A DNA stretch of 64,000 nt from Tubiluchus corallicola (lineage: Eukaryota > Priapulida > Priapulimorpha > Priapulimorphida > Tubiluchidae): contig JAQGDQ010000092.1 in the NCBI GenBank assembly GCA_030141605.1, positions 77,501 to 141,500 on the forward strand. The letters are read 5' to 3'. This document shows positions 9,542-39,600 of this stretch, in pieces (the stretch's first letter is position 1; each line of letters begins with the position of its first letter). The notes under the pieces are model-generated. The model had not been told where the DNA came from. It saw nothing but the letters and a program-made list of their open reading frames with translations, and did no database searches. The position numbers and the translations under genes are program-made.

Positions 9542-9692
9542 ATGACTACAGTAGTTGATGAAGATTTAAACTTCACCGAGAAGCATATCACTAAGCTACC
9601 TTTGGCTGTTCATAATGTTATTCATTCAGAGATCGTAATTGCTACTGCATCGCAGTGTGTTGGACAACTTATCTATAATGCGCTCGATGCCG
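9542..9692 (+). CDS. MLH3: MLH3 coding exon 1
   Basis: Encodes residues 1-50 and leaves one base (phase 1). It holds ATPase motif I as CVGQLIYNALDA: the Mg-binding Asn is present, but the residue four before it is Gln instead of Glu. Donor is gccg|gtatgc. The ATG is two bases after a polypyrimidine tract and AG, which suggests an upstream untranslated exon. Confidence 0.9.
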
Positions 9693-12600
9693 GTATGCAA
9701 ATTGTAAAATATTTGAAGCCTATAAATTTATTATTTATGAATCTTCAACTGACTATTAAGAATTGGTACAGGCAATTAAACCGATTTTGTGTATTCAGTT
9801 AGTTGCCATTGATATGCCACTGCATGAAATTATTAACACACGTAGTACTGTAGTAGTCAATAATGGTTTTGGTTCATATAGTATTTAAATTATTTTATTT
9901 GCTTTTTACTTTTTAAAAATGTCCACTCGAATGGTGTCTAATTTTAATGAATTTTTTTTTAGTAGGCCTAGTAAAACTTATTGACTGCATATGAGCATCT
10001 TTCAGAAATGATGATTTTTTTTTAAAGCCAGGAGATGGCTAGTTTGTAAACAGGACGGCAGAGCTGAGCAGAGGAGTTTATTAAACCACATGACTGACAA
10101 CTTCTTCCAGCTCTCAAAAACTCATGTAGAAGAAATGTCATGAAAACTTTCTAAATCACCTAGCCAGCAGTGGTTTCAGGTCTTGTATTGCTGTGTGATG
10201 TGTATTCTGACAATAGTGATCACATTCGAGTGAATACGGACCACGCATCACGCATTGCAGATTGCGGATTACGTGCACATGGAAACACTACAACATTTAA
10301 ATGCACTACGGTTTAAATACAAACGATTGTATATGCATTACACATCATACTTTACGTACACGTAATCGTACCTTATGCCTAACCTAATTTACTATGACAC
10401 TGATGCACTCTGACGTAATTTGCCATGACAGCGATTCACTCTGACTAGTTTACTATGATAGCATTGTACTACGATCTAGCTTACCATGACAGCTATTTAT
10501 CCAGTCTGACCTGGTTTACTGTGATAGTGATACATTCCAAACCTAGCCCACGATGCACTTTTTACTTTATGTCCATGATTGTGGTCACTACAAATTACTT
10601 TTTTACAATGACAATTACTTAATGATGCACTTTGACAGCGATGCAATCTGGCAGTGTTTACTGTGTTTACTTTGACAGTGATGCAGTCTGGCGGCTGATT
10701 TTACTTTGATAGTAATGCAGTCTGGCTGAGTTTACTTTGATAGTTATGCTCCCTGGCTGCGTTTACTTTGATGGTGATGCTCCCTGGCTGAGTTTACTTT
10801 GATTGTGATGCCCCTGGCTGAGTTTACTTTGATAGTGATGCACCCTGGTTAAATTTGGTATGACAGTGATGCACTCTGGTCGAGTGTTCTTTGGCAGCGA
10901 TGCAGTCTGGCTGAGTTTACTGTGATAGTATTGCCCCCTGGTTGAGTTTACTTTTTCAGTGAAGCACCTTGCTTGAATTTACTTTGACAGTGATTCAGTC
11001 TGGCTGAGTTTACTTTTTCAGTGAAGCACCTTGCTTGAATTTACTTTGACAGTGGTGCACGTCTGGGTGAGTTTTCTTCGCCAGTGATGCACGTCTGGGT
11101 GAGTTTACTTTGACAGTGATGCAGTCTGGCTGAATTAACGTTGACAGTGGTGTACCTGGCTGAGTTATTTTGATAGTGATGCACCCGGCTGAGTTTACTT
11201 TGACAATAATGCACCTGGATGATTTTACTACTTTGACATTAGTTCACCATGGTAATGATGCGCTTTGACCTAGTTTACCATAACAGTGATGCACTCCATC
11301 CCCTTTACCATGACAGTAATGTACTGCGGAAATCCCGCTGATATTTGTAATTTTGTACACGATGCTCTAGCCATTTTTGGTCTCTAATTGTTACTACACC
11401 ATACATTGAGTGATCTATGGACTATGATCAGCCTAAATTTCTTAAATGTTGCAACTATCTCGAAACGATTCTTATGACTTTTTGTATATATCTTTGACCA
11501 TGGTCAATAAATAAATAATAATAATACTCTGACCTAATTTATCATACTTTCCGACCGAGCACTGCTTCCCTGATGCTCAGCAAAGGTAGTTTTTAGTTGT
11601 TTCTTATATGCAGGCACACTAGAGTATAATTATAATAAAAGAACTTTATAGCAGGATACGGTACAAACATTATCAGAGTTATTGTATAATTGCTCTTTCT
11701 TATTTTAGGTTCATCATGTGTGGCTGTTCGTGTTGATTTACAAGAGTTTAACTTTCAAGTAGTGGACAATGGCTGTGGCATATCACAGACTGATTTAGCA
11801 GTTCTTGGACAGTGGTCAGTACGGTTTTTGCCACACTTCTTTAGAATTAACATTATGCAAGCTTAAATTTAATGACGTATATATTTTATTTAAAAAGTAC
11901 GAAATAAAGAGTTATTATTTGAGCTATAGTGCATAATTGGGTTTATAAAATAAATGTGGCAAGGTAAAAAAAAGGTATTTCTGTCAGTTTTCTGGCAAGG
12001 TAAAATAAAAGGTATTTCTGTCAGTTTTCTGTCCATGGTTATCATTTTGGTGCCAATTTTTTTATTTGTTTGTTAACTGTAATGAAATAAATTTGCATGT
12101 TAAAATGTAAGTAGATGGGTCAATTTCGGGCTAATGCGACATTATTTCAAATTAAGGTAAGATTTGATAGATGCAAGTAGTTAGAAGTTAGATTTTATGC
12201 TTATTTTGCAATCTAATAGCCTTTTTTTTTTACTTTTTTGGTATTTCTTGCTGTTTAGTCTGATTGTAAGATTACTTGTTTGCTTACATTACAATAAATA
12301 AACTATTTTTCGTTACTGGTAATAATAGTATATTCCGTATCATAATTCTAAATCCCGCACTTAACTGTTTTTGAGATTTAAATTATTAAAAGATTTAGAT
12401 CTAAATACAGGCAGTACACTAAACAAAGACGAATTTTTGACAAGAAGGAACGTATTAATTTATATTCGTGCATAAAAACTGTACAAGGTGCATTTAAACG
12501 ACTAAAAACATTTGTAGTTGTCATATATGATATTTATAATCAAAGATAACTTGCATTTCGTTTCAGGCATTTCACAAGTAAAATCAAGACAATTGAGAAC

Positions 12601-15600
12601 CTCTCGGATCTTGGAACATTTGGCTTTAAGGGTGAAGCTTTGGCCAGTATCATTCAGTGTTGTAAAACTATGGAAATTACTAGCCGATTTAAAGGAAGTT
12701 CTTGTACATTCCTAAAGAAATTTGAAAATGGCAAAAGTGGTGAAGTTATTGAAAGCACAGAAATCAGACCATCAGTTGGTACGACTATAACAGTAAAAAA
12801 TCTTTTTTGTAAGGTACCTGTGCGGCGGTTAAGGATGGACAAGACTATAGAGATGGAACAAATGTGTAGAGTGACAGAGCGCATTGCAATTGTGCATCCT
12901 ACTGTATCATTTTCAGTTCGTAATGATGTTACTGGTGAAGTGTGCCTCAATACAAGAAAGTGCACCAGTGTTTTGAGTATTTTATCCCAGCTTTACTGCG
13001 ATGTCTTCAACCAACAAGCAGTTAATGTCCATTATGTGCTATCTGGCTATGAAATAATGGGACACTTCTCAAAAAATTTGCACAGCCAAAAAAATTTTCA
13101 GTTTGTCTATGTCAATAAGCGAATAATAACAAAATCAAAAATACATTCTCTAGTTAACTTGTTATGGAAAGAACTGGGAAGAACAGAAAAAATTGCTAGT
13201 AATTCGTCATCATCAAACCAGGAAAGGAATTATCCTGCATATGTAATGTGCATAAATTGCCCAATTTCAGAGCTGGATTTGTTGTCCAGTACAGAAGAGA
13301 TGATAAAGTTTAAAGACTGGAATGTCGTACTGAAATGTGTGCGCAAGACTGTGAAACAAGCCTTAACTGATATCATTGGCAAAAACATTAATGATGAAGA
13401 TTCGCAGGAACTTCTTAATGAAATGAAGCTTTTAGAGGAAGAGAGTGAGCATACACATTGTAGTACATGTAGAGATATGTCAAATGAAACACAAGAAAAA
13501 ATTTCGGTTGCAACAGCTTCTGACAGTTTTCTTAGTTCGTTAAATAATATGTTGCAATCCAAAGTCGTCAAGCGTAAGAAGAATTTTGTACGTGATGAGG
13601 TAGAAAATACTGCAAAGAAAAGTAGACCGTGCAGTCATAGCAAGTTTGCTGGTGGTTGTTTTTCAGCTAATGTTTTGTCTGTGTCTGAAAAATTTCGTAG
13701 TTCTAACATCAGATTTGATGCTAAGAAAAATGAAGATGTTGATATTGACAGGATGACTGTGAATGCTGACATAAATGACGATAATGATGGTGTGGACAAT
13801 AGTAGCGAATTAACTAACAAAAACAACTTCAATACTCCCAAAAAGCAAGGAGTTCTTCGTAGTTTCTGTCTTTCTAAGCATTCTTTGGCTGATGCTATTA
13901 GAAAGAACCAAGATAAGCTACTGTCTCCACCTACAGGACTAAATTGTAACTTGATGTATGCAGATGTTGGTTGTTCTCCAGAGACAATCAGCCCCGGTTT
14001 GTCAAATTTAAGAAAGTTAAAGAATATTTTAAGAAACCCTGGTGCAGCTATTAATAAAGATGACTTAACAGATAATAGTTCTGGGCTTAACTGCTTACAC
14101 TGTGTAGGCAATGTCATCAAAGCTCACCATGCAGTAACTACCTCAGACAATATGGTTAAATCTCCTAAGGTGGACATTCTAGAAATGCAGAATCAGAGTC
14201 GAGCTTCGGATTTAACTCATGTTGCAGTTTGCCAGTCTTCCATTTGCCAAAATACTAATATTGAAAAAAAGATTTCCAGTTTAACACCTAAAATAACAGA
14301 AAAACATTTTAACAAAGATGCTAGCAAAGCTAGTAGCTCTGAGGAAGTAATTACTTCACTTGAGTTTGATCATTGTGACAAAGCTATTCAGTGCTCATTA
14401 CTGTCATCCAGTGATAATACAGATTTGGCAAATGGAACAAAGGCGGTTCATAAGGTACACTTAGAAGAAATGACTTTTGTGTTTCCAACATGTAAAGCTA
14501 ATGCAGTTTTGGAAAGTACTGGCTATAGCTGCTTTCCTGAGCACCAAAGGGAGATTGATTGCTGTGAGACACATGTAGCTGGCAAATGCAACAGTCTGTG
14601 TTTGTTCAATAAAGAAATCTTCAGCAAAACTAGTCCCAAGCAAAATTGTTGTAAAACTTCGTTTGATTCGCTTTGTACATCCGACACCCCTAAGCCTTCC
14701 TCTAACTATGCCAAAAATGCTTCAAATCCTGAGCACTCATCATTGTATGAACATAAACTACCTTATGTTAACAATGATAGAAGTGTTGAATCTACTGACG
14801 GATTTTCATTTAATCATGTTGTAAGTGCTACAGTGCCAAAACAAGATCAGAGTATAGGTTGCACTAAGATGTTTAATGTTGATGATATTACCCTGCCTAT
14901 TTACACGGCCTGTTACAATAGAGATTTTGATCCTGCCAGTTCTTACAGTTTGTCACAGGATATTTTAAACATGAGCATGCAACATAGATTTTCAGGCAGC
15001 CAAAGTTCTGCAAGGCTTACATGGTCTTTGAAGCCTATGAAAAATAGGCCAGGTATTTTGGAAAATATCCCAACCCGTGCATTATCACACCGTGAAAAAT
15101 ATAGAAATGCTGAGTCTCTTGCTCACCCTTGCAGCCCGTACTTTTTAAGCTGTGAGAATCGTAAAGGCATCTCTGACTGTGAAAAACACCATCATGTAAT
15201 TGAAAGTTCAGGTGAGCTATTACAGGCTGATAATGAATCTGAAAATCAAGGACAGATGTGTGATAGTCAAAGCATGCAGGGTCAAAGTGATGGCATCAAG
15301 TGTCTGTATGGAAGTTATGAAGGTTTTGGAGACTACCTGACATTTTCTGCAGCCAGTGATTTCAATCATGGTAATCTAAAAGAATACAGACTTTGCTGTT
15401 TATCAGAAGATAGTGCAGAAAACGAGTCTGCACATCTTAATAATCTTCAACAAATTGCATTGGCTTATTCCTCGCCTTCACCACTGCTGAATTATTTCAC
15501 TGGCACATTATCTAATGGTGGGATAGCATCTGCTTATAAAACAAGAGATGATGGTGACAATGGCAATAATGGAAATGCGGAAAAATTAACAGATAGTCAG

Positions 15601-18600
15601 TTTTTTGTTTCTGATTCGAGTCCCTCGCCTGTGTTTGGCGATACTACTTTGCAAGGTAAATTGGAAAGGGGACTGAAGCATTTCAATAGTAATACAGCCC
15701 ACCACTACAACCAATCAAGAAACAATGCACTTATCTGCAATATTGACTCTACAGTCAATTTTGCTGCGTGCTGTGATAATACTGAAGATAGCAATAAAAT
15801 TAATATTGGTCCTTGTTTAAAGACTATAACAGAAGATGTTGAATTGGCTGCAAAAGAGGATGTCAGCATCGGTTCCAGTGATGTCACTTTCACCGATGAA
15901 AATCCTGACGTTGAGGCTCGTACTGATAGCAATGAAGCTGAGAATATCCCTTTAATTACAGTCAGTGAATTTAACATCTCATCTAGTGTTTCAGAATGTC
16001 TTGCACCAGAGAACAGTAATTCTACTGCTGACGTTTCAAAGATTATTACTTGCTTTGATCCCGTAAAAGGAAAGCTGATGTCTGTAGATATGAGTACTGG
16101 CATGACTGTCGAAAGCAGTGAAAAGACCAAACAGGAAGCTCTTTCTGTAGAAAAGACTTGCAACAGTTTTTTCATGCAGAACACAGGTATATCTTATCAT
16201 GTTCATTTGAACAGACATTCTTTTCATTGTTAAGTTTGCTTTTGTGTAAGTATACGTGTGTTCATTAAGTATTAAAACTAACATAAGGTTTACGTTAAAT
16301 TACAAGACTTGTTACTTTTAACATTATTGTCACCAAATTTCCTCTAGGGAAGAAGCACTTTTTTCTGTCTCACAATGCCACACCATTTCTGCCAAAATCG
16401 TCACTGGGTAACCAAACTCATCTTGACAAACTTTCTCCTACTTCTAGTGAGCTGTTAAATGAAATGTGGAACTCACACCAAAGTATGCTTCGAGGTATCT
16501 CAAATGAAGGTAATGCATTCATTAACATCATTTCACTTCTGGTTATACCACATTTTTTATGGAGCAAGATGAATAGCATAGTAGTTACTATATTTAGTGA
16601 CAAGGTTAAGCAAAACAAAGTCTGATTTGTGACTGAATGGGTGACTATATGTAGGGGGCATCCCTAAAGTACACAAAATCAATTTAAATCGCACTTAGTA
16701 TATCAGTTAAACTTTTTGCAATACCTCACTGGATAAAAATCAGTGGCTCTTAAATTATGAATATGGACATGGAAATCACTTATTAAGTGAAGTATTAAAA
16801 TACGAATAGTGTTTTGGTATTATCCTGTGTTATTAACATTTTAATTTTAGTTCATTGTTGTTATAACAGCAGGCACTGACTCAACTTACTGTTGGGAAAA
16901 CCCATTACAGCAGTACAGATCTGGTATTGGCAACCTCTCAGATGTGCATTTACAACGTTTTGCAGTTAAGAAGCAATTGTTAAACCAGCAACACTGTTTG
17001 AGAAAGGAAATGTTAGAAAATATACTGGTATTGCATCAATGTTTTCATAGTAGTTCATGCTTTTACTTGTTGCAGTTTTTATTAACATTAGTGAGGATGA
17101 TTTCATTATTTTAAGATTTTTAAGACATTGTAGATTTGTAAATTTTTTGTAAATATGTAAATACTGTAACAGTATAAACTGTACTGTATCACTGCTTACT
17201 TTTAGTATAAACAGTGTCTTCATTTAGATGATACTGCAAACAGTTTGGAACATTTCTAGCACAATAATTAGATAGAGTAGACTAATCTACATTAGATTTG
17301 GTTAGATTGAGTTAGATTTCGTTAAGTTTATTCAGCTGTGATAAAATTGACGCTCGCCTTTAGTAATTTCTTTTGTTGATGAATCACAGTTGTTTTTTAT
17401 TTAAATTGTCTGTTGAAAGAATGAGTTATGGCAACCAAAATCTTTTCTAGCCTCCACAAAGGTGCACCAATAAAACTTAGTTTAACTGTGTTCTACAACA
17501 ACTTTGATATTGCATTTTCACAAGCATTGTCTCAAAGCCAGATATATGCTTGTGTATGCACAATGATGAATAATTATACAAAACTTTATGCTAGGTACTA
17601 AAGAGCGGTATATTTATTTATACGCTTATACAAATACAATATAATCTGTAGCAGACAAGGAGAGAACATAGTCATAGTCTTGGACTCTCGAGCTGAGTCC
17701 GGCTTCCTACTGCAAGGCCGGATTATCCTATAGGCTCCTCAAGCTGGGGGCCCACAAGTTTTGGTAACATTTGGTAAAAATCAGTTTTTTTCGTTACGGT
17801 TGTGTTGAATTTTGTGTAAATTTGATTTGCTTTGCAATAAATAGTAAAATAGCAGTATTTATAAAAGAATATTTTCTTTGACAACCAAAAGTTTTCTAGT
17901 TAATTTAAATAATTTGCAACAAGTTTACTTCAACCCACGTAAATGTTGCTAAAATATATAATAAGTAAAAAATATTTAAGATAAGTGCAGGCAAATTAGA
18001 GGGTGGCTCCGTCTGAGGATGTCCATAATTTTATTAGCATTGGGCTAGTGGCGCCAAAAAGTCATAATCTGGCTCTGCTTCTTAGCACTTGAGTTTGAGT
18101 CTGAATCCTTAAATAGTGGACTGCATCCTGATTTCAGTCTTACATTACTGGTGACTGAGCCATGATAAATTGATGCGGGAACAATAAATGTTCATACTTT
18201 TATAGCTACTCACCCAATTTCTATTTTTCTATACTTTCTGTTAACTGTTTTTGTATATCTCACTGTTCTATATTTTATTCCCATCTCACGAGACAATTAT
18301 CTTTTTTCCTAGAAATTTTTTCGTGGTGGGTATTTGCCCACTGTTGTGGGATAAATTTAGTTTATAAACAAGATTGGTCTGTTTTTAGGTTATTGGTCAA
18401 GTAGATGCCCAGCTTATAGCCTGTTTGCTACATAATGATGATTCTTTATCATATCCTCAAGATTGTGGGGCTACAGTTCACAAGCAAGATACAGTAGTTA
18501 TACAAGGCGGTGGTTTATTAGTATTGTTTGATCAACATGCAGTCCATGAGCGCATACGTCTTGAGAAGTACGTTAAAGGTACTCTTACATTGCAAAGGTA

Positions 18601-21600
18601 GCCACTATTAAATACTGGTTTTCTTCATGTTAACTTCAGAAAAAGGGCTACATGACTAGTTGAATACTGCAATTATCAATATCAAAATATATAAATATCG
18701 ATCAAATGTAAACAATGCTCATTGCATTCAAAGAAGTGAAGCAAACTTGAGTTTGTGAAACATAGGTGGCACTGCCGTCTCTCTTTATCAAACTATCAGT
18801 CTTACAATATTGCTAGAAATTCTACTGCATGTTAGGAACTGCCGTGCTTCTGATTGGCAAACTGCGTTTATCTTATAATTGATATTGGCCTATCGCTCTG
18901 CCTCCGTTGTAACGTAAGCACGCTCAGCAGCATTCGGGACAGCAGCTCCATTGGATAACAACTGTCTTTAGTAAACAACATGACAACTAACATCTAATAA
19001 GAAAGATAAACTGATTGTGCTTTTTCATACAGACAAACTTGCAGAACAGCAGTTATTTTTACCCGAAAATTAACACTTCAAGTAGCCAAAGAATTACTTC
19101 AATTTAAACAGAATATACAGACGAAGTTTCAAAGCACTACAAAATGCAGAGACATAAGTATTGTTATAAAGAAAGTTAGCCTTACTTTTTAAGATAAATG
19201 AGCAACAAAAATATTAAGTCCTTCTTGCCTATTTTTTCTATATTTAACTGATCATGTGCTCTTCTGCAAGACAAGACTTTTCCAAGTTTTGTATTTTTGT
19301 GTTTGTTAGTCTACGGAAATCAGATAATTTGATTGTTCCAGACCATGAGCTACCCTTGTATTGACTGCCCGAGTTACATAAGTCCCAATGGCATCTTTTA
19401 ACCATGATTATAACCAGAAAAATAGCATAAAATTAACTAATATTAAGTTGATAGATATTGCCTTTTTTAACTATTAAATATATTAACCTTTTTCCTTGTT
19501 TATTTGTTGTACCGTATGTGAGTACAAATAAATGGAATAATTAAATAAACTATAAATTTTGACCACATTTGAATTAATTTTCACCGTGAAGTGTTCATAG
19601 AGGTCTATAAAAACTGGCCAGAAAAGAAAACATTTTGCCTAAAAATTTCAGAAAACATTTTACCTAAATATGGGGTTTCTACGAGTGCTCACTTGCTCAT
19701 AATCATGACAGTTGTCACGGATTCCCATAGATGAGTTCAGCTCTGCGGCTAGGCTTCAAATGTTGCGGACCAAGGCCGATTAGCTTAATTACCCTAAGTA
19801 AACCTACTTAGAGGTGTGCAAGCTGTAATTTTTACATGCATGTTAACCTTCAATCATTTATACCTGCTAACTGAGGCTTCAGTAATCTGAAGTCATAAAT
19901 TTCTTCTCAACTCTGTTCAGGTAGGCCGTTTAATGTTTGTGAACATTAGAGCAGCATCATATGATTGACCTGACCTCGTTAGGTTAATTTGTCCTTTTTT
20001 AAAGTTAATCAAATAGTTGTTTTTATCTAACTTGCAAAGTCATAAACTAAACTAAACTGCATATTTTATTGATGGCAAAATGGTTTAATTAGCAATTTAT
20101 AGACGTAAGCGTTGTGCATGTCTTTCTATAATAAACAAAACTAGACTATATATTTCCACTAATTCACTTGCAATTTCAGTCGATAATAATAAAATATAGA
20201 GCCAGTCCAATGTTTTTGTTGTTAACTAATGAAAAGTTGAGCATTTTTCATAACCGTGTTAGATGCCCGGCAATACGCAACTGCAGCTAAATGTCTCGAA
20301 AGAACCGGAGTTAAGTAAGCTCTGCAGGGGTATGAAAAATCTTGCACACTGATTGGGTAGTCAACGAGAATGATTGACGTTATTGGTGGAGGCTTACTAG
20401 CATTACAATAATGAGTTGAGCTGAAGAACAATTTTCAAATTTAAAGCAGTGTTGCCTGTTAGTGTTGAATAGTGTTACCAGATGTATACACTTGCATGCA
20501 TATAGCATGTTAGAAGTCAGTAATAGTAGGGCAGATAATGTAACTGCCAAAAAGATTAATAATACATGCTCTTGTGCAGCTGCTAATATTACTACATCTA
20601 CAGTTCAGTAGTAGTTTTATATTTTTAAAGAATAGTGAGAAATCTAGAAAGCAGAGTAGACTTATGTGACCAACATTTTAACCTTACTTTTGACGACTAA
20701 TTTTTACTCATCATTAATTTGTTTATGAAGCATGTTTTTTCAAATATGCCCTTGTGTTATCACTTATATTATCTGTGTGCATTTAGAATTTCATGAAGAA
20801 ACTGCAGCAAGGAAATTAAAAGTACATTGGCTTTCAACCCCTCTAAACCTGAGTCTTCGAATGGACAGTGTCAAGCTTGCTAAGAGATTTGTTGATAGGT
20901 TTAATCAACTCGGGTTGCATTTTAATGTGAGTTTTGTAAATTAGCAGTTAACCCTCTGAGGACCAAGGGACACATTTGTCCCAAAATGTAACTTGGCCAT
21001 TCTTTTACAAAATTTTGTACTTTTTCTAGCAATATGCTATACAGATACAACCTTTGCATGATTGACATGAGTTTTGACTTAATTTTGTATTTTTTACAAT
21101 TTTTACAATTTTTATGTTTTCAGCTTGCTGAACCGATTGGGTTTTCATCAGCCTGTGCAAAAAGTAAAAAGCTGTATTAGTCAATATGTTTTTGCATTGT
21201 GTAGGGCCAGATTGTATAATTAGTTTGACATAGTTATGTTTTGAAATTCTTTGCTGTGGTTTTTATGCTGTTTGTTTATATGCAATGGGACACCATCATC
21301 CCTATGGTCCTTAAAGGTAATTTTCCAATGTAATACAGCAAGTGAACTGCGTACGGATTAGATGCATTCCTAGAGGTTGTGAGTTTGTGAAAGAATCACT
21401 GTCCTTCAGATACGTTGTAGACAACAATTCAAGACTGTAAAAAGGTAAATATATTGTGTGGCAAGATGAGTTAGGAAGGCTTGAAAGGTGTAACGAAGAA
21501 TAGGATGTATGGCGTGATGCACGTGTAAAGTAGTGTAGTGTAGTGCAGTGTAGTGTAGTGTAGTGTAGTGTAGTGTAGTGTAGTGTAGTATAGTGAAGTG

Positions 21601-24600
21601 TAGGGAGGTGTAGTGTAGTGTAGTGTAGTCTAATTGTCTGTATAAGTTGTACACATAGTAGATTTACATGTACAGAATTAGCATCTGTAGTTTGTATTAT
21701 GCATTCTAGATACATGAGACTTTGTTGGTAATGGCTGGATAACAGATCTGTATTAATGGCCTCCAACTTCATTTCCCCGGCAGACATACTTATAGTAACA
21801 TGTAGGCAGTCAGGTAGTTCTGAAAATTTTGAGGTAAGTGTCCACTCATGATTCAACAATATAGCAAGTTGATGGGCGGTGTTGACCTTATGGGTCAAAA
21901 GAAGACAAGCTACGAAGTAGACAGAAAGTCACTCATCAAATATTATCTTTTCATTAGCCTTTGATTTACTTGACATTGCCATAAACAATACATGCATTGT
22001 ATACAATGATCTACTAGCTGAAGTCAATCCAGCAAAAAACGGAAGCATAAGACCACTAGACTTCAAAAGAATTTTAGCTAAAGAGCTTATTGGCAAATAC
22101 ACATATCGCAAAGGAACAGCGCCAACAACTGTCACAAGAAGCATGACTGTTATTCCAGCTGAACATATGATGGTAAAAGCTGAGCAAAGGAAGAGATGTG
22201 TGCCGTGTGCCAAAGTAAAAGTGGAAAACCGTACATTGAGCATGTGCAACATTAATTTTGTAAACTACATTTTTGCTTTACTTCTACTAGAAATTGCTTT
22301 TCAAAATGTCACAGTAGATAAAACTGAGCTATTTGATTGTTGATAATTACAGAAATGCTGTGTCTAAATATATAGTTAGCTTCAAGTAACATATGCTTAG
22401 TGCAAACTAAGTATCATTGCAACTTCACCATTGAGGACCATTGGGACACGTGTCCCAGGTTGTAACTATAAATTACCAAAGTGCAAGTAAAAACAATATT
22501 GATATTTCGCACAGGGATAACAAAAGCAACCAGAAACTTAAGAGTTTTCGTAAAAGTTGTAACTTAGTAACTTGTGGTCCTCAAAGGGTTAAATAAATTT
22601 AATTTGTTTGTTAGGGTGGGGAACATTTCCAGAAAACGTATTACAAGCATACTAACTTAATGATTATAATACAACTTTTTTAAATAAGATACACATTTTG
22701 AGGCTGTTTCCTTTTGGTGCAATAACAGTCCTTTTAGTTTCTATCTTTTTATCTTATGTATTCACTTCAGTTAACATTTCGTAACAACATAATAAGGCAA
22801 ATAAATTTCAACATTAAGTAATGAGTGTTTTTCATTAACATTTCATATTATATGCATAACATAATGTAACATTGCACAACATAATATAACGTTATTTTAT
22901 AGAAACATGGCTTAATTGAACAAGAATACATCTAACACACAATTGTCCTGGAAGACATTACTGTATTCCAGCATGTTTTGCTGTACACTATAGGTTACTT
23001 CTTGCATATAATTTCTCTTTTTCTTTATAAAAATGGCAGCAGTTGTTGTGATAAGTACATTTAGCCAAGAGTTTCTGGAATGCCACAGCTTTACCTTGTC
23101 TGGTGGGTGTTCATAAATAACGAGTTTACATGTGGTGGGAGGAAGTTAACCATGTAATTACTGTTAATTATTGGTAACACATTCGTTCTGATTTTGGATG
23201 TGCATACTCATTTTAAAATTTTTATGTTTTTTTTGAATGTGTTGTGTTTTGGTGGCACTAATAACCCGTCTGATTTGTCTACTCTGCTTTTGAGTTTAGT
23301 TTGTATTGGGTAATTAAAATTTAAATCAATTGATAGAGTTATACATGCTTTTAATCATTGTTGAAATGACTGCTGACATTTCTGCAGGAAATTATGATTT
23401 TATTTTAAGCAAACATCACTGATGATTGTTTTCTTTAATTGCATTTCTCTTCTTTCAAAATTGAAACTTAAGCAGCTTACTGCCTTTTACAGGAGTTTGA
23501 TGTTACTCTTTACTTCTGTAGTGTTTAACTTGAGAAATCTAAATTCTTCTGCATTCAGTCAATAGTGGAGCATTTGAACATTCTTTCAGTAGTAGTTTTT
23601 GTTGTACTATTTATATTGCAACAATTAAATTATGAAATTAACATACATGAAGTCTTAACCTAAAGGTGTTTGTAATTCTATACCCTTTGTGCAAACATGT
23701 TTATCTATAGTTTTCTCTAACCGTGAAAGTACCAAGCATGTTAGTGAGCCTGTGCTGCATTGATATACAAATTTTGTTAATTTAATTATTGGACTTTGTT
23801 TGCAAGTTTTTAAAGTAAACATAGCACAGACTCCTAGGTGTTTTAAACTTGCATCACTTTCAGGTTATGTTGCTAGTGCTCGAATTGGCTAATATATTGA
23901 CGAGATTATACCTGATTAAATTGGTGACTGTAACGTGACGCAATGAACGACTGAAAGACCAAACACTTAATAAAGTTTCCTATTTTATGGTGCATATTAG
24001 CAGCCATGACAGCCCGCCATAAACGTCCATTTTTCCAATCTTGAAGAGCAAAGCTAACATCTACGTTGTAAACTGCCAGAGTAATTCAGCCATCTGTCTG
24101 CAACTATATATTAATCCAGCACGTATTGCTGTCAGCAGTTTTCTATTTTTAACTCTTAACATTGTGTCTTTTTGTTGAGAAGCTCCTTTGGACTTGTAAA
24201 TTAGCTTAAAAGAAACAAAAACAAGAGCAGTGTTCGGTCAGATGGTGTATTTGTTAGGGCATTTAATAAGAGCAGGGCCGTGTTAACTCATGAACATGCT
24301 GGGGACTTGCTCCGGGGGCATCACAAGCATAGGGACCACATGCTAATCTATGTATGTGTTTTTCAAGGCTCATGTTATATTGTTGAATTGTTTATGTTGA
24401 TTAATCTTTACTGTACAGCATGTTTTTTTAATGTTTAAACACTGATTTTGTTGGAAGTATCAATAAAGTAAATATACAGTGTGTGTTTAATTTTATCGAC
24501 CATTTAAATTTTTAGTCCTGTGAGTGGTTGTGTAGGTAAGAGCCCAAGTACACTGTTTTGCCCTGGGGGCCTATAATGCTGCTAATACATGCCTGAATGT

Positions 24601-27600
24601 GAGGATGCCTGACATACATATACATGTGTTTGGCTTGTATGCCTTAATTTAGTTAGTTAGCTTTTTAACAATGTTTATGTACCCATGCAAAGAACTGATT
24701 GCAACTATTACTAATTTTTATTTATGTCAGCGATATTACTGTTCAAATTGATGGATAACAGCAGTTAACGTTCCTTTAAGTGGCGATAGGTGGCTTCCAT
24801 GTTTACTTGGATCATATTAGGTCTACCCTGTACCTTCAAAACGAAGAACTATGAGAGATATTTTGTTGAATTTGGTCCCAAAAAAGGCCTTAACTTAGGC
24901 CACAGATTTTTCAGAGCTACAAAGACTGCAAAGCTCTATAGAGCTTGCCTAAACACATAGAACAAACCTGTGCCAATCAGTTAATCATTCGTCTGAGCTG
25001 ATCCTTTTTGATCAAGTTTGTGACCAGCTGATAGGTGTATAAAATTTTGCATATTTTCACTTGATTTTCATTTGTGCAATGGTATAAAAGTGGAATACTG
25101 TTAATTAGCAATACTGTCACAAAGCACTATTTCCGGTATTGTGCCAAAAGAGTCTTGTAAGGATCTATTACGTGAAACCATCATCCTCGTCAGTGCTGTC
25201 GTTTGCGCTTCCTTTGTCGCTACCTCTGTATTCCATACTATTAGTTCTTCTTTTTTATCCATAATTTTTATGACTTTTGATTAATGCTATTCATTTTTGA
25301 TCATTTTGAGACTAATGTAATTGCTTTTTTCTTTTTTCTTGGCATACTTGAGCTTCTTCATACTTCTTAATGCACCATGATGTCTCTTGATGTTAATTAG
25401 TAGGACCGTGAAATGTGCTGACTACCTTTATGTGCTATATAATATTAAGTGTACAAAAAGAAGGAAAAAGGGGCTTAGAAATGCACTATTTTCTCTGTTT
25501 TCAACATTTACAGGTGTCAAGAACCATATAATTTTTTGCAGTTCCTTTGTTTCTTTGTCGAATTTGTTGCTGTTGGCTACAGGTGTTTACCCTAAGGTGG
25601 TATTTAATGCTGCTTCAGGTAGATGCAGAAGAGGTACAGGTTACAGGAGTGCCTGAACTGCTAGCTGATATGGAGCCTACTAAATCGGGGAGTGCATGTT
25701 GGGTAAAATTCGCGCTGATTGAGGTTAGTAAAATTGTTTCATTTTTGCAAGGAGTTGGAATTTGCAGTGTAAAGAGTTTACCATTTTTTATTGGTCTCTT
25801 GAAATTAATGGACTGGCGCATTTTGCAAAAATATTTTGCATATGCAGTGTTTAAAGTGCGCTGGGTCTGTCAGGGTCGCAGACCCGGAATCTAAAATTAT
25901 AGACCCTGCACCTGAAGAAAAGCAATTTATCGCCAGGTTGCAGATTTTGTTTTATCACCTTTTAACTAGCTCTAAGCTTATCTGTAACACATTTTAATAG
26001 TGCAATTTCCATCTCTCAGTCAGCAAAAGTGAACTATAGTCGATAACAATGGGTGCGAGTAGTTTATTGTACTGAGCTGCTGTTACCCCTTCTCGATAAC
26101 ATACATAGTGCAACCCATTTTTCTTGCAAATTTTCAGGAAAAAAGAAAAACATTTCTTGAGAAGTTATGCACAAGAACAATGAGTTATTTCACTTTACCA
26201 TGTAGTCACTTATTTTGCTTTAGACTTGAAAAGTTGGGGGCAACAAAATTTAGCTGTAACTAGTGCACGTTTTTGATTGTGTCAAAAACTGTGGGATGAT
26301 TCTGCTTCTGTGACAGTATTTTTTGTATTTACAAATAAAGATTGTTTGCAAAATAATTAACAACACTGTATGTTGTTAACTATAAGTAAGTACAGTTGTG
26401 TTTGACTCGATTAACAATTTCAATGAAGTCTGAGCTTGTCACTTTTTGACCAGTGACCTGAAGGTCAATGCTCAGCCAAATATGGGTCGATATACCATTA
26501 TATTTGTCTCCTCAAGACCTTTCGTTTGATGTACTACAACCTACTGTTGCTCGACATAGGAGGCATTTGTATCACTGCCATGTAATTTCACTTTTTGTCC
26601 TTTAGTGGGGTTAGTGGTTGACCAGCTAGGCTTAGGGCATACCATTTAATTCGTCTCATCCAGACGTTTCATTTGATGTAGTATAAGACTTTAAAACTGA
26701 AACTTCCATTTTACCTATGACCTCAGGGCCAAGGGTCAACAAATGCAGGCGTGACTTATACCACTCAATTAGCCTCACTATACCTTTCATTTGATGTACT
26801 ACAACCTGTTGCTGCTGGACACTGAAAAGCATTTGTCTGCATGACCCTCAATTTTGGTTTTTGCCCCCTAGCAGGTCCAAGAGTCAACTAATCTGGGCAT
26901 AAATCACCATTCCATTCTGCTCATCAAGACCTTTCATTTGACATACTACGAGCTACTGTTACTTGGCACTGGAAGCATTGGTGTCCCAGCCTTCGATTTC
27001 AGTTTCTGATCCCTGGCAGGGTCAGGGATCAAACAAAATTACTGAAACTTATATCATTCAATTCATATCATCCAGACCTTTCATTTGATATATTACACGA
27101 CACTGTTACTCGACACTGGAATCATTGGTGTCCCCGACACCATCGATTTTGGTGTTTTACCCCCTACCGAAAAATTTTCCCTTATGTAAATGGCTCATAT
27201 TGAGCGTTGCACAGCAACTCAACACCACCTAGCCACATACCAAAAATTGTGATCCTAGTTCAAAAACTGTAGGAGGAGATCCAGCCTAACAAAAAAAAAC
27301 AAGAAACCCTGCCCGCTCTGCAACCTTTGACCCAGAGGTGACGGGTCATTTGTAAATATAAATCCCCCTACCCGGGGAGTGTGTCCTGTGAGTTTTGTGA
27401 GCCTAGCCCTGTGCATGTGCAAGTTATTAAAGAAACAAAACGGCGGAATAATAATAAATAATAATAAAAACCGGGGGTAAATCAAGAAGATTCTGCTGTA
27501 AGCACACTCTTAATTAGTTGGCGTGATTGTCTTTAACAGAAGCATAATTATGTCACCATGTAAATTGGAGCTAGTGCACTTTGTTGTATTTCATTTGCTT

Positions 27601-30600
27601 AGTGATTCCTGACAGTTTAACTGTTTAAATAGGCCAAGACTTATACCGGTAGTGTACAAAAGCTAGCTGATGAAAACTTAATTCACTGATTAAAAATCAA
27701 TTAGTGTTTTTGAATTAAGACCCAGATTTTGTGTCCTTGATGGCAAAAAGAGTTGAAAAACTGTTTACTGAACTGACTTTTTTCAGTCATTACAGGCCTC
27801 AAATGCCTAAAATTGGGGGAAATGCATTGGTTTTTGGTCTTGCTTTGTTCATCATGAGACCTCTTACCTAAACAAATACACTGTAAGCACTGCATACATG
27901 CCATATATATGGCATATATGGTGTGATAGCATCTTTTCAAGATCACTTATAGTTTGCCACTTCAAATCTGAACACAGAAGTTTTTCCATTTTAAGGACAA
28001 CTGAATTTGTTATTACAGTATTTTCTGATTAATATTATTCCTAGCTTATTCTAATTCTTGCAGGAACTCTTCAAAGAAATATTGCACATGATCAGAATAT
28101 CCCAAGGAGGTAGTCAAGGAATGCCACAAACTCTGAACAAAATCCTGGCTTCAAAAGCTTGTCACGGTAAACTATGATTTTGTTTCATGCATCATTTATC
28201 TGTGCACCATTTTATTTTGTCTGCATTTTTCACAAGGACATTCCTGAAAGAGAGCTAAGAGATGTTTGAGAAGTGCTAATTTTTTATCTAGCTCGTTGAT
28301 CTGTTGATTGTTGGTGTTTTCCTGGTTTCTTGGTGATTTATAAGTAAACTTCTTCCTGATGGACTGTGGAAAGAGAACATAGATAAGGTGCTGAGTGTTA
28401 CTGAACACAGGCCACATGGTACACATGTTTTTGTCTGTACATCTTATCTGCCTGTAAAACCAAAAACAAATTGAACAGTATATAAACTCTCTGATAATAA
28501 TTGGGCCACAAGTTTGACTGTCTGTACAAAAACAAAATTCAATAGCTACTGTGACCCACAGGTGTTTTAACATCAGTTCCTTATTTTCGATTGCCTAAGC
28601 CTTCAGCTTGCTTAATTTGGTTGAATCGGTTTGGTTTTATCATGCTGTCTCAGAATTTTGTAGTTATTTTTTTCTATTACATCTGCCGTAAAGTACCAAA
28701 CAAACAGTTTTAGTACATTAATATGTAGAAGGGCCTACTATTCCCATATACATTGGTGGTAGTATTAGTTCCAAAATTGTATATTTGGATTTGAAGTTCG
28801 TAAAATGGGAATCTACTAAATTATTGATAGGATGTGTGCTGGATCTCATCTTTAAAGCAACATGCTTGTATTACGTATGTGCACAAATTGTTTCTGACTT
28901 GCTTGATGTTGTCACCAACTCGCCAGAGCCTAAGCTGCTTATATTCTAGATTTAACTGCTTGCCTTTTTTATTTAGGTTGCAGTCTATTAGTTCAACTTA
29001 TGTAGTTGTTAAGTGGCAATAAGTAAATATTTCCTCTAGTATTTTGTATAAAACATGTGGTGCCAAGTAATGACTGAAAGGCAAGAAAAATTGTACATTA
29101 TTCAGTACAAGTGCGTATTCCAAAAGTTGTTAAATAAGAAGTAAACTTTTTGTATGCAGTTTTTACTTATTAAGGAGTTTTTCCTATTCAGACCCCTTGA
29201 CAATGTACAGTTCTTGCAAGACTTTTTCAATAAGGTCTATCTGTTATTGTGTAAGTAATGGATTCATTCAATTGCTTGCGGTTCAGGAAATATGCTATTT
29301 TCCTTAAAAACCACTCTCGCTTTCAAATGTAAACCTAATTTTTAACAACTCGAAGATGTATTAAAGGAAGACTGGATGACTTTTCATTTACCACCCCATT
29401 TTCAAGTCCGACAAAAAGTATACAATTAACACTGCATGAGCGTTTCTGATAATTAGATAATAGATTAAAACTTAATTAACGGCGGGCGAGCCCAACTATT
29501 GACGACATCACAAATTAGCATAATTTTCAACAGCAAAAATATTCCACGAGCATGTTGCACATGTTTGCAAAAGCTTAAAATTGAAGTACAGTGCTACTGT
29601 AGGATATTCAGTGTGTTGTACTAAACTAAGCAAGTTTTAAGATAAAAATTCAAATTTAAAATTTACTGCTGTACTCCCGCATGAACTGTCGAACGTATGT
29701 AGTTCTTCACAAACTAACACATCTGAACTGAAAGGTGCAGCACCTGTTTTTGTGCAATGCGTTTCCAAAAAGCAGGCACTAGTGCCCGACTAACTAGCAA
29801 ATGGCGAAATTGCATGTAATAGCGAAGAACGTGAACTTGTGTTTGTGTGGTAATTAATTCTTTAACGTAAGTCATTTTTGAAAAAATAGTGCGTTTTCTT
29901 TCAATATTATAAAGAGTAGATTGTTTTGACCTGCAGTTTAAGGATGGGACCGGTTTTGCTTTAGGATTTCAGTCTCCCATGGACATTTTTGTGGTCATTT
30001 TCCATTCTGCTCTCCTCACTTCTCCTCTCCCCTCTTCTTCACCCCTTTCCATTCCTTTCGTCTCCTCTCCTCTCCTCTCCTCTCCTCTCTCCTTTCTTCT
30101 CTTCTCTTCTTTTCTTTTCTCTTTTCTTTTATTTCCTTCCATTTTTTTCTTCACTTACCTTTCCTGCCCTCGCCTTGCCTGTTATTCCTAGTAATTTTTA
30201 TATATGAATGAAAATTGGAGTAATATTGAAATATTAAACTAAAAGCGTGTTTTATAATATTGGGTATGCACTATACGGGTATTTTAATGAAAACAAATTT
30301 TCTGTAAAGTTTCACCGTGAATTGGCAAGTATGTAGTAAGCTACAAGGTTTAATGCCTTATGTCCCAATAACTTTAAAGTAGTAATTTCAGTCAGTATGT
30401 GACTTATGAATTTGCTTGTGATACAATTATTGGTATTTCTCATATATTGAGATCTTGGTTAATGTTCCTGTGATGTGTTATAATTCTACAAAATGTAAAT
30501 AGACCCAGTGGTAGTTCTTTCACTCTTAGCTAAACTTCTCCTTTCTCTTTCTGCGCAGAGTAGCCCCGTTCTTCCCATTCCATTTCGCGCTAGGCTGCTG

Positions 30601-36600: not shown

Positions 36601-39600
36601 GTATACGAGCTACAAACAAATCCCGCAACTGATTTATTCGGTGTTTAATTTTGTCAATCGTCAGAGTCTCATCTCACTTGGTACTTACTCTTCGGGGAAG
36701 CCAACTTTGGCGGGATGTCAGTCTTCTTGGTGCCCCTAAACGTAAACCGCTTATCGAGTCAAGCCCTTTGCAAATAACCACACCACGAAAGAAGTTTGCC
36801 GTAACACGTATTGGTTTGCTGCTGGTATGTATACCAACTATATTGGTTATGTTAATGCATATCCAATGCTTACTTCTTTCGGCAACACTGTTTGACATAA
36901 CAGCCTATTTGTAAAAACGTTGTTATTTTTGCAATGTGTTACACGAACAAATATAGCCACGTCAAATTACACGCACGCATTTTTGCTGATATCTGTAATT
37001 ACGCAGTGCGTTAAATTGTCAACAGCGTGCAGAAGATAATCCAAATTATCCTATAAAAGTAAACGAATCATGTGTACGTTAGTTATAATGAAGCATCCAG
37101 GGACGATAAGCCAAATAACAGATGCGCATCAAATAAAACCTGGTAGTATAATAAACAGCATCATAGGCTAATCATTTCCCACAAAACGTTAGCAGGGCGA
37201 ACAGAGATTACTGACTGCCTTTTCACAGGGAAGATATAATAGAAATATTACATAATTATGGTTGGTGTAATAGAAATATAATAGATACGTTACATTTTTA
37301 GTAGATCAATGTGTTAACTGTTTACCTACAAATTAACTCTCTTATTGTAAACGTGTACTATACATAGTCCCTGTTAGTCTGAATAACGTGTTTATTTTTA
37401 ATATTAATTCCTGCTTTAATGTAACAGCTGTACCTGTGTATGTTATAGAAATTTGACAAATAAATATATAATTGTAGACGTTGGTATTTCGTGGTTGCCT
37501 TTCCTGTATAGAAAGTAGGCTGCATGAAAAGGCAAAAAAATTTGAAAGGCATGCTATTATCAGCTGTGCATAACTTAGGCATAACCTCGGGCTTTAATGC
37601 AGAGCAAGTCTGTTAGTTCATAATATAATGCTATTATTGGGTGTACACTGTTGGTCGTGTGTAAATATATTAGCAATCAAAACTAACAGCCATAATTCAC
37701 TAGCTAAGCAGCCATTAACACGTGTACTGCTGGTGTTGTTGCTCATATTTCTAATGGCTTTGCAAAAGATCTGGAAGGTTGGCTTAGTTGAATTACTGCA
37801 TGACCTGAGTTGTTTTTGTTATTCTGACTGCAGTCATAGTCTGTTGAGCACCTAAGGTTGGTAGGGTGCCTGTGCCTTTTTGGTGGGGGAAAAATTGTAA
37901 AAAGTGATAAATTCATTACATTTGCAACTGTGTCAGGGCAGCACGTGCTACTTTGCCCTTATTTTGTGAATTTTTACATATAATAAACCATTATGAATAA
38001 TCCGACTCTGAAATGGATGAATTTAAACTAGTTTATAATTATTTTCACCCTAAAATTTTCATGTGTGAAGACGTTGAATGAATCATGGTTGAACAGTTAT
38101 ATCCTTTCAACATGTTTTTATGATTTAACACTTTCAGTAAATTTGAATGAATTGCAATAACATGATTCATAATCAACTGGATTTCTTTTACTTTTTTTGT
38201 AGGAGCAATACGATTTGGAGACAAGTTGACTCTAGATGAGTGTAAGATACTTATGCAAGATTTAAGCAGCTGTCAGCTTCCATTCCAGTGTGCTCATTGC
38301 AGGCCTAGCGTCGTTACTCTATTACATACAAGTCGCCTAGCCAGATTAGAATGCAAGGTACTCAGTTAGTACTCAGTACACCATGTTCATACTCAAAACT
38401 AGGGTCAACACTTTCGGTATTTGATTAACATGTAACTTTACAAATATTTGTATCTAATGACAAATTATCCAAATTTTTTCTGGTTTGTATTGCTACAGGA
38501 AATCAATTTTGCATCCTCTTTTTTCACTGCACTGTGAACATGCAATACAAGTATCACTGCTAAGAGTGGCAGAATGATTGCCAGGGTAGTTAACAATCCC
38601 CATTCTTGTTTTGAAATTATTATCCAAGTCTGGAGACTTACAGGCAGCACACGTCATCCCACATCATCAGTCCATCGTCTGTTGTCGATTTATAGTTTGA
38701 GGTTAAACCAGTCTTCACAGTTTGAGTTTAAACCAGTTATACCTCAGCCACTTGGGGTAGTCTTAAGATTTTTTGTATGGGGTAACAGTAGGTCCAAGTG
38801 GTGGTCAAGGCCAAAGGCTTATCCAGAACAAGGATAAACAGGTAGAAACAGCTGCACATCAATGGTGGGCATTGGGGGATCCGAGTCAGCTCATTGTGAG
38901 GAATTAGAGTGGCCTATTGCCTACTGCAAACCCAACACAGACATAAAGAATTTTACCCACAACCTCATGAAGGGACGGTCCAGATGGTGGGCATAGTGGG
39001 AGAACCTGTCAGCTCAGTGCGATGAATTGGAGTGACGTGTCACCTATTAAAAATCCAGTGTTCTAAAGGCAGGTTTTATCCCCTGAAATGTCGAGAATAC
39101 ATTGGGGTTAACAAGGATCGCCATTCCGCAAAGCGTCAATCAACCAGTGGGTATTCATCTCACGAATGCAGGGAAAGGGCAAATCCAGGATTCGAACAAT
39201 TGGAACTATGGTATTACAAAAGCAGGCTTTATCCTGCAAAGTGTCAAATGTAGCTGTTAGGTGATGAGTGGTCAATGTCCATCCCCCAGGAGGGAGGAAG
39301 AGAGAATCCAGGATGGAACCTGTAGTAGGAGAACTTGAGTCAGCTTAATGTGAGGAATTTACAGTGACTTGTCACATATTGTCAATCCAACATTGACAAA
39401 AATATTTTACCCCTCCTTCAGGGGAGGGAAGGTGCACAGATGCAGGATTCTAATAATTGCAATTATAGTATTGTAAAGACAGGTTTTGTTGCACAAAATA
39501 GCAAATGCAGGTGCTAGATGATGAGTGAAGACCTTTGGGCGGTGATCCTGGGAAAAGGCAAAAATTGCTGAATGTGGCCAATAACGCCAGCTGTAGAAAA

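Follow-up and report, generated by a model that had tools for sequence, protein, structure and literature searches.

Replacement of catalytic residues in the ATPase domain of a Tubiluchus corallicola MLH3 predicted to lack its own ATP hydrolysis

The window analyzed here, a 64,000-nucleotide stretch of a Tubiluchus corallicola contig (C775, positions 77501-141500, + strand), carries an MLH3 gene whose product has Gln (Gln42) where MutL ATPases have their catalytic Glu and Glu (Glu329) where they have the motif-V Lys. We lean toward regarding this gene as a genuine, maintained MLH3 orthologue whose GHKL ATPase is degenerate and whose product would act within a MutL-gamma complex driven by MLH1. 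The ATPase of this MLH3 is predicted to be probably hydrolysis dead, and tight ATP binding and closure by MLH3 are doubtful as well.

MLH3 comprises 10 coding exons (positions 9542-38369, + strand; 1,633 codons). No stop codon and no frameshift interrupts the 4,899 coding bases, and every intron begins with GT and ends with AG. The exons are as follows.
9542-9692, + strand: exon 1, spanning codons 1-50 and one further base, with ATPase motif I; donor gt at 9693
11709-11814, + strand: exon 2, with intact VVDNGCG (motif II); splice sites ag/gt
12567-16186, + strand: exon 3, the remaining ATPase domain and the long linker in a single open frame
16348-16509, + strand: exon 4
16870-17027, + strand: exon 5
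18389-18578, + strand: exon 6, with the intact endonuclease motif DQHAVHERIRLE at about 18530-18565
20787-20926, + strand: exon 7
25619-25723, + strand: exon 8
28064-28166, + strand: exon 9, whose ACR-type motif, SKACHG, has ACH like that of human MLH3
38203-38369, + strand: exon 10, the last, with stop codon TAG at 38367-38369 or onward splicing at 38358

The gene is single copy, exon 1 being encoded at only one place in the whole 343.5-Mb assembly. A second MLH3 copy was rejected, as the search of the 343.5-Mb assembly found none, and so was an alternative motif-I exon, of which there is no second example in the 64-kb window. Intron 1 holds a minisatellite of 31-bp units (10661-11229; about 18 copies), and intron 7 holds about 20 repeats of GTAGT at 21530-21629.

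Judged from sequence, the orthology of the gene to MLH3 is secure, because its C-terminal region is closest to yeast MLH3 among solved structures (top PDB match, 6shx; E=1e-17). The N-terminal domain is of the MutL-type GHKL class (Pfam HATPase_c_3, 39.5 bits against a cutoff of 25), and the PDB matches of this part of the protein were MutL, MLH1, and PMS2 structures. The C-terminal domain also contains the block LSSCQLPFQCAH, as in human MLH3. When the C terminus was used as a query against viral contigs, no relatives were found. The gene resembles human and yeast MLH3, a MutL-gamma subunit, in domain order and in its ATPase-linker-nuclease layout, and it shares with them the VxVRV...DNGxG and FTSK region, DQHA(X)2E(X)4E, ACH, and the QLPFQCAH block. 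It carries Gln42, Glu329, Lys107, and Ser327 where they have Glu, Lys, Arg, and Pro, respectively, and it reads CAHCRP rather than CAHGRP. Five of the altered codons are listed here.
9665-9667, + strand: Gln42 codon CAA, replacing the catalytic Glu (E. coli MutL E29, yeast Mlh3 E31)
12628-12630, + strand: Lys107 codon AAG, within GFKGEAL; Arg in 92 of 92 homologues (GFRGEAL)
13288-13290, + strand: Ser327 codon AGT; Pro in 92 of 92 homologues
13294-13296, + strand: Glu329 codon GAA, replacing the motif-V Lys (E. coli MutL K307); Lys in 92 of 92 homologues
38298-38300, + strand: Cys1611 codon TGC, within CAHCRP, where yeast MLH3 (6shx) and other MutL endonucleases have Gly

The initial annotation had reported Gln in place of the catalytic Glu, and this was confirmed: in the frame of the ATG at 9542, the CAA codon lies in a stretch that reads ...ASQCVGQLIYNALDA, with Gln42 four residues before Asn46. 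The same column is Glu in all 12 other sequences of a smaller panel, which was fetched without a Glu-containing pattern and consists of six bacterial MutL proteins that the assembly itself encodes, the MLH1 and PMS2 exons of the animal, and hand-entered sequences of human MLH1, PMS2, and MLH3 and yeast Mlh3. Once 80 GTDB MutL proteins are added, 92 of 92 homologues have Glu at this position, a count that is partly biased at this column because one of the two patterns used to fetch the GTDB rows includes the Glu; the columns of Arg107, Asp97, Pro327, and Lys329 are left uncovered by those patterns. The scan of GTDB contigs yielded bacterial MutL only, nearly all from Bacteroidota, and served as a conservation panel. 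The MLH1 and PMS2 rows from T. corallicola were pieced together by eye from exon fragments matched by tblastn. The human and yeast MLH3, MLH1, and PMS2 sequences in the alignment were entered by hand; the PDB homologues and the nuclease motif of yeast MLH3 came from tool output. The residue preceding Gln42 is Gly41, where homologues carry Lys, Arg, or Glu. The possibility, raised earlier, that a different Glu fills the catalytic position was checked in the homologue alignment, and no other Glu does so.

The remainder of the ATPase domain and the endonuclease motifs had been described as intact, which proved to be wrong, as Lys107, Ser327, Glu329, and CAHCRP were found. Compared with the 12-sequence panel, MLH3 departs at 7 of 33 near-invariant ATPase-domain columns (Glu30, Gln42, Asn97, Lys107, Cys230, Ser327, and Glu329). 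Five residues present in every one of the 92 homologues (Glu42, Asp97, Arg107, Pro327, and Lys329) are all replaced in this MLH3, Asn97 standing in for the conserved Asp. The alignment at Glu329 is anchored without gaps on IxFxxW, which is common to human MLH3 (hand-entered sequence). The motif-V lysine of E. coli MutL, K307, touches the gamma-phosphate of ATP (PMC3724809), and the yeast mlh3-R96A mutant, altered at the GFRGEAL motif, shows an intermediate meiotic phenotype and a mismatch repair defect (PMC3538346). Yeast Mlh3 (hand-entered sequence) departs at 12 near-invariant columns, none of them catalytic; thus, ordinary MLH3 divergence does not account for the changes seen here. These additional replacements also bear on the alternative that the species ordinarily has Glu and that Gln42 reflects a rare allele or a mistake in base calling or assembly. 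A single base change (GAA to CAA) would suffice, and one assembly represents one haplotype; however, a lone error at codon 42 would leave the other replaced invariant ATPase residues unexplained, and the long MLH3 frame is clean, so we consider an error or allele quite improbable.

Several functional residues of the ATPase domain are kept, namely, the Mg-binding Asn46, the adenine-binding Asp70, Gly72, and the glycines of GFKGEAL. Their retention favors a rearranged site that still hydrolyzes ATP, in which Gln42 would orient the water and another residue would give the positive charge, and some GHKL proteins are known to tolerate unusual catalytic residues. We nevertheless regard continued hydrolysis by such a site as very unlikely, since the alignment shows no alternative Glu or Lys at or beside either Gln42 or Glu329 and since hydrolysis in MLH proteins is routinely blocked by mutating the corresponding Glu (PMC3538346). 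Of the original proposal that this MLH3 binds ATP and does not hydrolyze it, the loss of hydrolysis holds up as a sound prediction (Glu to Gln, with no substitute Glu), but the picture of a clean hydrolysis-only mutant does not, given Glu329, Lys107, and CAHCRP.

The nuclease domain contains the metal-binding motifs DQHA(X)2E(X)4E and ACH (ACR-type). The CAHCRP motif (nuclease motif V) keeps the Cys and His ligands and the catalytic Arg and has Gly changed to Cys relative to C(P/N/A)HGRP; the roles of the metal ligands and of the catalytic Arg are those described in PMC5578695 and PMC10366529. The substitution places an extra Cys beside the metal-binding His, and this unusual residue fits general erosion as well as it fits specialization.

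Changes in both domains, including that of CAHGRP to CAHCRP, could also reflect recently relaxed selection on a gene heading for loss, the ATPase and nuclease motif changes then being early random damage. MLH3 is known to be missing from some animals. Still, we think relaxed selection unlikely. The clean frame limits any such explanation: the 4,899 coding bases contain no stop codon, frameshift, or broken splice site, and under neutral decay the probability of finding no disabling change would be about 0.006 at 1% divergence and 3e-5 at 2% (assuming a 10% indel share), an interval too short for five near-invariant ATPase residues to have changed by chance. Moreover, MSH4 (contig C2185) and MSH5 (C296) exons, assigned by eye from conserved blocks, are present in the assembly, indicating that the crossover pathway that uses MLH3 has been retained. 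The animal's own MLH1 (C29; KELIEN, GFRGEAL, and HPTK) and PMS2 (C1470; KELLENSLDA, GFRGEAL, and TPDK) both keep the catalytic Glu and the motif-V Lys.

The loss of at least two residues used in ATP hydrolysis suggests that MLH3 operates without hydrolyzing ATP and that this task is left to MLH1. According to the reading that we prefer, a maintained orthologue with a degenerate ATPase, MLH3 would be expressed with an ATPase core lacking both the general base (Gln42) and the gamma-phosphate lysine (Glu329). The protein probably still folds and uses its C-terminal domain to pair with MLH1, and it would provide the nuclease site and cut DNA. MLH1, with its catalytic residues intact, would power the ATP-driven cycle by which the MLH1-MLH3 complex opens and closes; without the motif-V lysine, ATP-dependent closure of MLH3 may be weak too. 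An ATP cycle supplied by MLH1 is plausible because yeast mlh3-E31A retains part of crossing over (map length of 67.0 cM, compared with 54.5 cM for the null and 100.9 cM for the wild type, with null mismatch repair) (PMC3538346) and because nicking by human MutS-beta/MutL-gamma requires ATP but not its hydrolysis (PMC12559329). On the other hand, yeast mlh3-E31A is still impaired, and a dead MLH3 site should therefore carry a cost, which, like the unusual Cys of the nuclease motif, counts against our preferred reading. More tentatively, as a possibility to which we give somewhat less than even weight, MLH3 may here be a pseudo-ATPase, with MutL-gamma running on one engine, MLH1, and MLH3 given over to meiotic crossovers as a subunit that supplies nuclease and scaffold.

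Yeast Mlh2 and human PMS1 (MutL-beta) are partners of MLH1 that retain their ATPase but have lost nuclease activity. The present MLH3 is similarly a MutL-family partner of MLH1 in which one of two catalytic activities appears to be lost, but here it is the ATPase that has degraded, with most of the nuclease preserved. The closest experimental counterpart is yeast mlh3-E31A (PMC3538346), in which the identical catalytic position is lost, although that allele carries one engineered Ala, whereas the T. corallicola gene has a natural Gln and has also lost the motif-V lysine. The need for MLH3 ATP hydrolysis in meiotic crossing over is disputed (PMC5448812), and two studies of yeast mlh3-E31A are in disagreement (PMC3538346). 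Our literature search on natural (or sponge) MLH3 ATPase loss found nothing pertinent. A natural MLH3 that lacks both the catalytic Glu and the Lys for the gamma-phosphate, beside intact MLH1, MSH4, and MSH5, would offer an answer to that dispute from evolution; if MLH3 is indeed a pseudo-ATPase, crossing over in nature can dispense with its ATP hydrolysis. Such a variant would also be a ready-made test protein for a one-engine MutL-gamma.

Probing the assembly with a silicatein-like sequence gave three intronless cathepsin-like hits, and a cox1 probe gave none. Bacterial MutL genes, at least six in number (contigs C1531, C981, C197, C1464, C892, and C683), also occur in this assembly, together with several bacterial MutS genes. 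A query based on the MutL genes returned mostly Bacteroidota relatives, and these MutL genes likely belong to symbionts or contaminants; the presence of both sets suggests a host with bacterial symbionts. One bacterial MutS (C319:10540-11105) lies in two frames, split at the Walker A region, and is possibly a symbiont pseudogene or a sequence error.
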